DNA from: Burkholderiaceae bacterium
GTDB taxonomy: Bacteria; Pseudomonadota; Gammaproteobacteria; Burkholderiales; Burkholderiaceae
Direction: 5' to 3'
DNA: 64,000 nt
Assembly: GCA_018261955.1 (NCBI GenBank)
Contig: JAGTRK010000002.1
Span: forward strand, 124,001 to 188,000
Below the pieces are notes generated by a model. It was not told where the DNA came from. It worked only from the letters and a program-made list of their open reading frames with translations, and ran no database searches. Both the position numbers and the translations under genes were made by a program. Below, piece after piece: positions 42,050 through 46,224 of the stretch; the first letter of the stretch is position 1, and each line of letters opens with the position of its first letter.

Positions 42050-44221
<2,172 letters not shown>

Positions 44222-44246
44222 GTTGGTTTTGATTGATTGTAATAGG

Positions 44247-44274
44247 AAGGGCAAGCACGAGGCTTGCCCTTTTT
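44247..44274 (+). terminator. Rho-independent terminator after katG
   Basis: AGGGCAAGC (44248-44256) pairs with GCTTGCCCT (44262-44270) around a 5-base loop, followed by TTTT. Confidence 0.9.
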
Positions 44275-44442
44275 GATGCATGGTTAGGAAATGTCTTTTT
44301 AGTGAGTTGGATTCACTTTTGATAAAATAATTCGTCATGAAATAGGAATATTGGAGTAACGAATTAACTTCTTGGATAGTTCACAAACCAATTCATAGTA
44401 TCCTTGGTCTAACTTATATATCAATTTATTCTGCGCACTAAA

Positions 44443-44613
44443 TTAATCTGGAAACATTTCAATTTCTGTCACAACATAATTATCTCCGTCTAATACAATC
44501 TCGTTCTGTTCATATAATTGTTTGACAGTAGCAACGGCATCATCAATGTTTGCTGCTTCTATTTCAACAATTTTTGATAAAAACTCGCGAACTTCTATTT
44601 TAAATGTTTCCAT
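44443..44613 (-). CDS. dpnD: DpnD/PcfM-family small protein
   Basis: A 56-residue protein, METFKIEVREFLSKIVEIEA onward to VVTEIEMFPD, matching the DpnD/PcfM family of short acidic proteins. dpnD is the second gene of the pneumococcal DpnI cassette; its function is not established. ATG 44613 overlaps the end of the DpnI-like gene by 14 bases, so translation is probably coupled. A frame to 44646 would overlap further and is not preferred. The codon use is strongly AT-biased compared with katG and ybaK on either side. Confidence 0.8.
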   Translation of the reverse strand: METFKIEVREFLSKIVEIEAANIDDAVATVKQLYEQNEIVLDGDNYVVTEIEMFPD

Positions 44614-45379
44614 AGCGAACTTTCTTGTAGTTGCCACGACTAACAAATTCTACAATTCCTTTATCCCTTAGTATTTGCAATTGTTGCCTAATTTTATCTT
44701 TGACGAAATTGTTGTTCGGGTGTTTTGATTTCAATTTTTCCTCGAATTTGTAAAGTTCATCAAGAGTAAAAGTGTCATTCTGAATTAAGTCGATGCAGTT
44801 CATCACATCTAAAATCCAGCCTTTTGCGTCATTATTTTGTTGTCGTAAAAATAGAGTTTTGTTAAAAGTGTCTTTTACCAGGTTATGATTAATGACCTTT
44901 GCATTTTTAATTAAAAACACTTTTCCAGCATCTGCAATTTTTGAAATATCAATATTGCAACCAACCCAGCCTGCTCTCCGTGCTGTTTCTGCTAATGGTG
45001 GACGTTTGATAATGATTTCTGCCGTGAAAAACTGTTTGGGGATTATTAAAAAGTCATTCACAGTCCACTGCTTTGTGTAGGTAAGAAAGAAAAAATTTGG
45101 ATTGTTTTCTGAAGAAATTCGTTCAATCATTTTGGAATATGCCCCATCAGCAATCGTATTCGTGAGTTTTCCTTTTTTGCTTTTTAATTCAAACTCTTCA
45201 CTGCACTTTCCACAGTAAAAATCCGCGACAGGACGATTGTTTTCAAATTCATTTAACGGTAAATTGCCGCAACTCGGACAATAAGAATTGTTTAAAACCC
45301 AATCTTCGGTCAATAGTCTTGCAATTTGAGAGCTGCTTGAATACCCCTTTGCTAAATTTGTATTAAATGATAAATTCAT
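44600..45379 (-). CDS. dpnC: DpnI-like methyl-directed restriction endonuclease (Dam-replacing family)
   Basis: DpnI cuts GATC only when its adenine is methylated. The 259-residue protein parallels pneumococcal DpnI along its length: RLLTEDWVLNNSYCPSCGN, FENNRPVADFYC, SEEFELKSKKG, NPNFFFLTYTKQW, ARRAGWVGCNIDIS, and KIRQQLQILRDKGIVEF in the C-terminal winged helix. The PD-(D/E)XK residues Asp53, Glu64 and Lys66 and the zinc cysteines 34, 37, 56 and 59 are all present, so it should be active. It lies directly after a truncated Dam-type methyltransferase and is AT-rich. An active enzyme requires that the host lack GATC adenine methylation. Confidence 0.93.
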   Translation of the reverse strand: MNLSFNTNLAKGYSSSSQIARLLTEDWVLNNSYCPSCGNLPLNEFENNRPVADFYCGKCSEEFELKSKKGKLTNTIADGAYSKMIERISSENNPNFFFLTYTKQWTVNDFLIIPKQFFTAEIIIKRPPLAETARRAGWVGCNIDISKIADAGKVFLIKNAKVINHNLVKDTFNKTLFLRQQNNDAKGWILDVMNCIDLIQNDTFTLDELYKFEEKLKSKHPNNNFVKDKIRQQLQILRDKGIVEFVSRGNYKKVRYGNI

Positions 45380-45454
45380 TTGGTGTCTTGATCTTGGTAG
45401 AGAGTGAGTTAGACTAACTTCACAAAAAAAATTAATTCAAAAGTATTCTAAAAC

Positions 45455-45538
45455 TTAACTGCGTGCATTAGGCGATTCTTTTATGACCTTGTCGATGATT
45501 TTATACTGGCCACCTGCCCATTTTAAAAATGGCTTCAT
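45455..45538 (-). pseudogene. dam: N-terminal stub of a Dam-type DNA adenine methyltransferase
   Basis: From ATG 45538 the minus strand encodes MKPFLKWAGGQYKIID and then 11 more residues before TAA at 45455-45457. FLKWAGGK/QY followed by I-I/L-D is the opening motif (AdoMet-binding motif I) of Dam and DpnM-type GATC methyltransferases. The rest of the enzyme, including the DPPY catalytic motif, is absent; the DpnI-like gene starts 76 bases later. It is best read as the residue of a dam gene replaced by the DpnI cassette. The stub is short, so chance is not excluded, but the motif match is specific. Confidence 0.7.
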
Positions 45539-45600
45539 GAATTTTCTAAATCTTGAATGTTTTCCAAGTGATCAATGCTTGGTATTAAATATGAATCCAT
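45535..45600 (-). other. Short ORF overlapping the dam stub, possible gene remnant
   Basis: ATG 45600 opens a 21-residue frame (MDSYLIPSIDHLENIQDLEN, then S) whose TGA overlaps the dam-stub ATG (ATGA). The frame is open upstream for a further 18 codons, almost to the ybaK stop. This looks like the 3' end of a gene once coupled to the methyltransferase, but I do not recognise it. No other gene is visible between 45380 and 45659. Confidence 0.3.
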
Positions 45601-45659
45601 TATAAATGAGAACTCGATAAAAATATGGTTAGAATATTCTTTACGTGATGAATTTCAAC

Positions 45660-46151
45660 TCACCCCACCAACCCCACCTCAACCGCCACCGCCGATAGGC
45701 AGCGGATAATCTCTTGCGGATTTAGACTCACCAAAAACCCGCGCTTGCCCCCATTGATGTAAATTTCAGGCAGCTCAAGTATGGTTCGCTCGATGTACGC
45801 AGGCATGGCTTTTTTGGTGCCAAATGGACTGGTGCCACCAACGAGAAATCCTGTGTGGCGGTTGGCGACTTCGGGTTTGCACGGTTCAACCTTTTTGCAG
45901 CCGATTTGCCGCGCGAGTTCTTTGGTCGAGACTTTGCAGTCGCCGTGCATGAGGATGATGAGGGGTTTGGTGTGTTCGTCTTTGAATACCAAGGTTTTGA
46001 TGACGGTATGTTCGGACACGCCCAATTCACGCGCCGATACGCCAGTGCCGCCGTGTTCTTTGTAGGCGTATAGATGTGGGGTGAACGCGATGTTGTGCGC
46101 CTTGAGAAATTGGGTCGCGGGGGTTTCGGGAGTGTGGGCGTGTTTGCTCAT
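45660..46151 (-). CDS. ybaK: Cys-tRNA(Pro)/aminoacyl-tRNA deacylase YbaK
   Basis: YbaK hydrolyses mischarged Cys-tRNA(Pro) in trans, guarding translation fidelity. The 163-residue protein has the INS/YbaK domain: VIKTLVFKDE, the LILMHGDCKVSTKELA helix and the catalytic-site GFLVGGTSPFGTKKAMPAYIE with its conserved GXXP loop and Lys. I start at ATG 46151 (MSKHAHTPETPATQFL), not at 46187. It reads toward the dam/DpnI region and lies downstream of gshA. Confidence 0.94.
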   Translation of the reverse strand: MSKHAHTPETPATQFLKAHNIAFTPHLYAYKEHGGTGVSARELGVSEHTVIKTLVFKDEHTKPLIILMHGDCKVSTKELARQIGCKKVEPCKPEVANRHTGFLVGGTSPFGTKKAMPAYIERTILELPEIYINGGKRGFLVSLNPQEIIRCLSAVAVEVGLVG

Positions 46152-46224
46152 GGTTGTATATGCGGCATAAAAATGGGATTGCGCCATTATCAGTTATCCC
46201 CGCAGGTTTTGTATTCGCGTCCTC

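Follow-up and report, generated by a model that had tools for sequence, protein, structure and literature searches.

In Streptococcus pneumoniae, DpnI and DpnII (and DpnIII) have been reported as alternative cassettes at one locus (PMC4263131). In Neisseria, it has been described that drg, a DpnI-type gene of low G+C content, is inserted at dam, which is truncated in some strains, and that dam and drg are mutually exclusive (PMC516771, PMC4269198). The locus described here is a new case of this kind of swap, already known from Streptococcus and Neisseria. It lies in a 64-kb window (the whole stretch of DNA analyzed) of a genome, G000, whose assembly is 88.7% complete and whose genus is represented by three genomes, one per species, the two congeners being G001 (locus L059; completeness 70%) and G002 (locus L060). 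From the comparison of the three, it is highly probable that a GATC R-M cassette, composed of dam, a second methylase and a nuclease, was swapped for dpnC-dpnD at the ybaK-katG locus (Table 1).

Table 1. Features of the exchange locus, in positions of the window.
Feature	Position	Strand	Basis
katG, left flank of the exchange locus	42071..44221	+	NCBIfam cat_per_HPI; collinear in congeners
AT-rich cassette tail; left-hand junction at about 44274/44275	44275..44442	-	Limit of congener homology
dpnD, DpnD/PcfM-type gene, 56 aa, overlapping dpnC by 14 nt	44443..44613	-	Pfam
dpnC, DpnI-family endonuclease, predicted to act on Gm6ATC; catalytic domain and winged helix	44600..45379	-	Pfam, PDB, PADLOC
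AT-rich gap between stub and dpnC	45380..45454	-	No congener homology found (blastn, alignment)
5' dam stub, 27 codons; stop at 45455-45457	45458..45538	-	Congener Dam match; DNA alignment to dam starts of G001 and G002
Region upstream of dam, common to congeners; presumed old promoter	45539..45659	-	blastn
ybaK, flanking the locus on the right; largely missing from G002	45660..46187	-	NCBIfam YbaK_EbsC

The protein encoded by dpnC (259 aa) matches the Pfam families DpnI (1.4e-77) and DpnI_C (7.6e-35), both nearly over their full length, and thereby contains the N-terminal catalytic domain as well as the C-terminal winged helix. Its residues 1-253 match the DpnI structures of the PDB (4esj/4kyw, E 1.3e-101) and it is recognized by the PADLOC methyl-directed endonuclease model mREase_II (2e-115). 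The order dpnC-dpnD is, to our understanding, that of the S. pneumoniae DpnI cassette. Asp53, Glu64 and Lys66 are conserved, together with Cys34, Cys37, Cys56 and Cys59, which we take to be the zinc cysteines, and Leu129, Arg135 and Trp138 of the methyl-binding cleft are present. Catalytic roles for the first three residues and methyl-cleft roles for the last three have been reported (PMC4117772). The intact DpnI homologue proposed in the initial annotation is hence borne out by residues, Pfam and the match to 4esj alike, as is the overlapping DpnD-type gene by Pfam DpnD-PcfM (5.7e-11). The latter score was obtained for the longer listed frame, 44443-44646, which opens with TTG; the ATG at 44613 is the more likely start. 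Relatives of DpnI were gathered by scanning a genome collection with peptide patterns which, being derived from the window DpnI, favor close relatives; 55 were found (L001-L055), giving 56 dpnI loci with the window. Relatives of dpnD stand downstream of dpnI in 26 of the 55 (E up to 0.1). In nine (L004, L006, L026, L046, L048, L051, L052, L053 and L055), the dpnI frame is shorter than 200 codons, reflecting either frequent gene decay or, for some, sequencing errors.

Regarding the stub, a congener Dam used as query retrieves it from the 64-kb window with E 1.4e-7, the next best match being at 0.69, and its identity to the congener dam genes, which stand at the same place, is 75% over 24 residues. 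A Pfam search of the stub gave no match, and two NCBIfam Dam models match it at E 0.0016-0.0017, under their cut-offs, such weak family-model scores being explained by the shortness of the piece. A chance ORF is excluded by the E value and by the congener alignment. The 27-codon start of a Dam-type methyltransferase noted initially is therefore genuine, and the fear that it was a chance match is dispelled by the dam gene standing at this locus in both congeners; the gap separating it from dpnC also exists, its length being 75 nt and not 76. Upstream, blastn aligns the window at 86.7% to G001 over 45486-46180 and at 70.5% to G002 over 45486-45813, and the congener alignment places the right-hand junction at about 45458-45486. 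On the katG side, homology to both congeners reaches 44273-44274. The region preceding the stub is presumably the old dam promoter; a promoter consensus scan of 44150-45750 on both strands returned 10 sites vs 5.2 (sd 2.3) in shuffles.

Across the three genomes of the genus, the flanks of the locus are constant while its contents differ three ways. As the initial annotation had anticipated for relatives aligned at ybaK-katG, an intact dam lies between the same flanks in both congeners, accompanied by a DpnA-like second methylase. The order is gshA, ybaK, dam, second methylase, a 207-aa gene and katG in G001, and gshA, dam, second methylase, a 177-aa gene, a 193-aa gene and katG in G002. In the latter, most of the ybaK gene adjoining the R-M cassette has been deleted, and only about 150 nt of its 3' end remain alignable (L060:7066-7415). 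The Dam of G001 matches Dam structures in the PDB (2.1e-85) and DpnM (2dpm, 2.2e-44), and its second methylase, assigned to N6_N4_Mtase by Pfam, shares 49% identity with the middle gene of the pSRQ700 trio dam/methylase/endonuclease. The 207-aa gene is MutH-like (Pfam 3.9e-8, PDB MutH 8.6e-7, PADLOC REase_II 3.9e-10), a category to which we assume the GATC nuclease Sau3AI to belong as well. The combination of Dam, second methylase and MutH-like nuclease predicts a GATC R-M cassette in G001. A recognizably MutH-like nuclease is present at the locus in one of the two congeners, G001; in G002, the 177-aa gene belongs to PDDEXK_11 (1.6e-5), the Pfam search of the 193-aa gene gave no match, and PADLOC found none for the genes at the nuclease position (L060:8993-10091), which possibly encode a nuclease new for GATC. 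By homology, the displaced systems would act on GATC.

Between the window and its congeners, homology is lost somewhere in codons 17-26 of dam and picks up again near 44274, immediately beyond katG. As the DpnI cassette fills the space between these breakpoints, the whole old cassette appears to have been replaced, the start of dam alone being left. Indeed, the second methylase and the two extra genes of G002 have no match in the window at E up to 1, and the best match of the MutH-like protein in the window (E 0.05) lies outside the locus. The earlier proposal that a DpnI cassette took the place of dam consequently holds as to the replacement but has to be amended as to the loss of a solitary dam, since a whole predicted R-M cassette was displaced. 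A search for a further Dam/DpnM gene, for which the initial annotation had called, returned no MethyltransfD12 match in the 88.7% complete assembly of G000 while both congeners were positive; no second Dam was thus found in this assembly. A 681-aa frame located elsewhere in it gave one N6_N4_Mtase match. The case for the loss of Dam from this genome is strong but, given this level of completeness, not final.

We propose that the ancestor held, between ybaK and katG, a DpnII/MboI-type GATC R-M cassette (Dam, a DpnA-like second methylase and a nuclease), nearly all of which would have been replaced by dpnC-dpnD in one step or in quick succession, an active dpnC being untenable in a cell still methylating GATC. 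What would have been retained is the stretch preceding dam, along with the first 17-26 codons of the gene. As DpnC would be lethal alongside an active Dam, the replacement must remove Dam simultaneously, and the start of dam would be the scar of this event. The cell would afterwards leave GATC unmethylated, and DpnC, if expressed and active as predicted, would cut the fully methylated Gm6ATC of incoming DNA from Dam-positive donors, phages and its own congeners. It might be argued that dam decayed first and that the DpnI cassette came later to a dead locus, without direct exchange. Two such steps cannot be dated from sequence, the last codons of the stub have diverged from the congener dam and the 75 nt that come next have no congener homology. 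We nevertheless judge this course unlikely: congener homology breaks once per side and the second methylase and the nuclease are wholly gone, which fits a single replacement, and many other loci also have a dam fragment immediately preceding dpnI. It is far less probable still that the stub traveled with the DpnI cassette from a donor already bearing a dam scar. Although dpnI is likewise directly preceded by a short dam stub in the closest DpnI relatives, L001 and L002, the stub of the window matches the congener dam best (75% of 24 residues), the short stubs of L001, L002, L027, L028 and L047 reaching only 55-59% over 14-22 residues, and DNA homology to the congeners extends across the sequence preceding dam as well as some 17 of its codons. 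A replacement at the resident dam accordingly remains our preferred reading.

The DpnI cassette was probably acquired. The highest identity of its DpnI, 83%, is to a Cytophagales protein (L001), and among 150 genomes of the family dpnI is present solely in G000, none being found in the 149 others searched; both facts point to acquisition. Within the order, dpnI was found in 10 of 399 genomes, nine of them over the cut-off. By record title, 35 of the 55 relatives of the window DpnI are assigned to Bacteroidota. A tree was built from 52 DpnI proteins, namely that of the window, those of the 46 loci (out of 55) with frames >200 aa and five from the order; in it, the window protein falls within a group of 12 rows (support 86/88, not starred); nine of the 11 other rows bear Bacteroidota titles, the remaining two being Spirochaetales (1) and Ignavibacteriales (1). 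A Bacteroidota-like origin of the cassette is therefore probable. The G+C content is 32.9% for the DpnI cassette, 49.6% for the window and 39.6 and 38.8% for the displaced congener cassettes. Since the latter are AT-rich too, AT-richness alone is weak evidence of transfer; the transfer that had been deduced from it stands, owing to the tree and to the rarity of dpnI in relatives. As possible carriers, a known plasmid and a known phage were both rejected: 44275-45485 has no DNA match among plasmids, and the single protein match obtained among phages has 53% identity over 29% of the query. Protein matches in the plasmid collection consist solely of two chromosome-sized N. gonorrhoeae records. 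G000 also contains a ComEC-type gene, compatible with natural transformation without proving it.

The genus is short of GATC. In 184 kb of G000, 152 GATC sites were counted vs 748.6 expected from trinucleotides (0.20), and in 136 kb of G002, 136 vs 555.3 (0.24); for G001, the count is confined to its 4.5-kb contig (9 vs 19.2). GTAC and GCGC stand at 0.99-1.01 in G000 and G002. Other palindromes are depleted in G000 (CTAG 0.09, CCGG 0.10, GGCC 0.26, AGCT 0.29), and the same four are low in both G000 (184 kb) and G002 (136 kb), at 0.06-0.43, hinting at further long-lived R-M systems in the genus. We consider it likely that the GATC shortage is a fossil of a GATC-cutting R-M system long held by the genus and inherited here. 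A distinct origin, such as exchange with differently methylated partners, mismatch repair or phage pressure, is rather unlikely, albeit a more serious contender than the alternatives weighed above for the exchange. Rusinov et al., who found GATC to be underrepresented in 38 of the 42 genomes encoding DpnI-like enzymes and termed this surprising, suggested exchange between methylation types or mismatch repair; they also noted that an ordinary GATC R-M system is frequent in strains or congeners of DpnI-type genomes, and that a lost system can leave avoidance as its trace (PMC4687349). Across our 55 DpnI loci, GATC is present at 754 vs 1873 expected (0.40) and ranks lowest or second lowest among the 16 tetramer palindromes in 32 of them. 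The shortage is similar in the 20 loci counted with a dam fragment (0.37) and in the 35 without (0.42), which does not favor a link specific to the fragment and lends some weight to these other causes. Against them, G002, which bears dam and lacks dpnI, is equally short of GATC, and 28 dam-family loci from other genera of the family (102 kb) have no overall shortage (563 vs 573.1; 0.98), these controls being dam-family loci rather than random DNA, with single loci ranging from 0.0 to 1.26. Moreover, the MutH-like protein of G001, used as a protein query and not as a MutH family model, found no homologue in G000 and G002, which argues against mismatch repair. Of four other dpnI-bearing genomes of the order (11-13 kb each), two are not depleted in GATC (ratios of 1.10 and 1.02) and two are moderately so (0.53 and 0.55).

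Beyond this genus, dam fragments recur upstream of dpnI. Among the 56 loci, 53 have >200 nt upstream, and in 19 of these 53 a Dam N-terminal motif precedes dpnI on the same strand at a distance of up to 1.2 kb. Searches of the downstream side and of the opposite strand, out to 3 kb as far as sequence was available, yielded no such motif. Three further loci (L020, L031 and L052) have degraded dam stubs, recognized by eye. In 15 of these 22 loci, the dam frame runs 18 to 323 codons past the motif and terminates close to the dpnI start, from 6 nt ahead of it to 17 nt beyond it, an arrangement that would suit translational coupling. The exceptions end 161 nt before dpnI (L018 and L022), 75 nt (the window), 59 nt (L028), 54 nt (L052), 27 nt (L020) and 19 nt (L031). 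The window belongs to this pattern, although its 75-nt gap implies that stub and dpnC are not translationally coupled. The loci are not all independent, several Bacteroidota having one common junction; by parsimony, the dam-adjacent state requires at least 14 changes on a tree with 18 open forks and without L004, L046 and L052. We tentatively advance, while leaning slightly toward doubt, that dpnI often enters genomes through disruption of dam, whose 5' end it then uses as its own. A single event would then remove the methylase, as survival demands, and supply a promoter and a translation start. Were this true, the shortage of GATC that is common among DpnI genomes would have been inherited from displaced R-M systems. 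A literature search conducted mostly at the abstract level brought up no description, outside Neisseria, of dam fragments recurring ahead of dpnI.

Ten of the dam frames are near full length and keep the catalytic DPPY. In all ten, the C-terminus differs from that of the congener Dam, in L046 solely in the last residues, and these frames are presumably inactive. MethyltransfD12 is over the cut-off in 27 of the 50 genomes searched from among the 55, and its ten best matches (215-233 bits), which span the whole Pfam profile, correspond by position to the ten dpnI-adjacent frames, the next match scoring 164.5 bits. In nine loci (L003, L007, L008, L010, L012, L017, L029, L030 and L036), a near-full dam with DPPY directly precedes a full-length dpnI. 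Our guess is that such cells survive through C-terminal inactivation of Dam. In the computable pairs among these nine loci, dN/dS of dam is 0.04-0.17, many dS values being near saturation, and this low ratio may predate the junction. Between L007 and L008, dpnI has a dS of 0.02 beside a dam dS of 1.11, so that dpnI seems to have moved recently between different dam genes. An element of about 95 nt was observed just before dpnI by blastn in L007 (2756-2846), L008, L010, L012 and part of L011, and by eye in L003, L004, L009, L017, L029 and L030; in some of these loci it cuts dam at differing places. This element may mark the border of a mobile unit. No copy was seen in the gap of the window, and the fold of the element is unremarkable (z 0.88).

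The interest of this locus is that it allows a before-and-after comparison, within one small genus, between a predicted GATC R-M system and its mirror-image enzyme, the polarity of the exchange being suggested by the dam stub. It also bears on a puzzle, namely that DpnI-like enzymes should spare their own unmethylated DNA, yet the genomes carrying them nearly always avoid GATC (PMC4687349); here, the displaced system is visible at the very locus of the DpnI cassette. Moreover, gene flow into the source species from the methylating congeners is predicted to meet a barrier. As in S. pneumoniae, a DpnI and a DpnD gene are found where relatives hold GATC methylases and a nuclease, with opposite methylation preference. 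Unlike in S. pneumoniae, the alternatives are distributed between species of one genus and occupy the ybaK-katG locus, one of them includes a MutH-like nuclease, and a dam stub remains. The likeness to Neisseria drg lies in a low-G+C DpnI-type gene standing at a truncated dam, whereas the window DpnI is 44.5% identical to the gonococcal protein; moreover, N. gonorrhoeae retains beside drg a second methylase, 60% identical to that of G001, while in the window the whole cassette is gone. Finally, the displaced cassettes can be set beside the MboI/LlaDCHI-type systems, which we take to be the GATC R-M systems comparable to the G001 cassette and to the pSRQ700 trio: the gene order dam, second methylase, nuclease is the same in G001 as on pSRQ700, but the third gene is MutH-like in G001 and is replaced in G002 by a PDDEXK_11 gene and the 193-aa gene.
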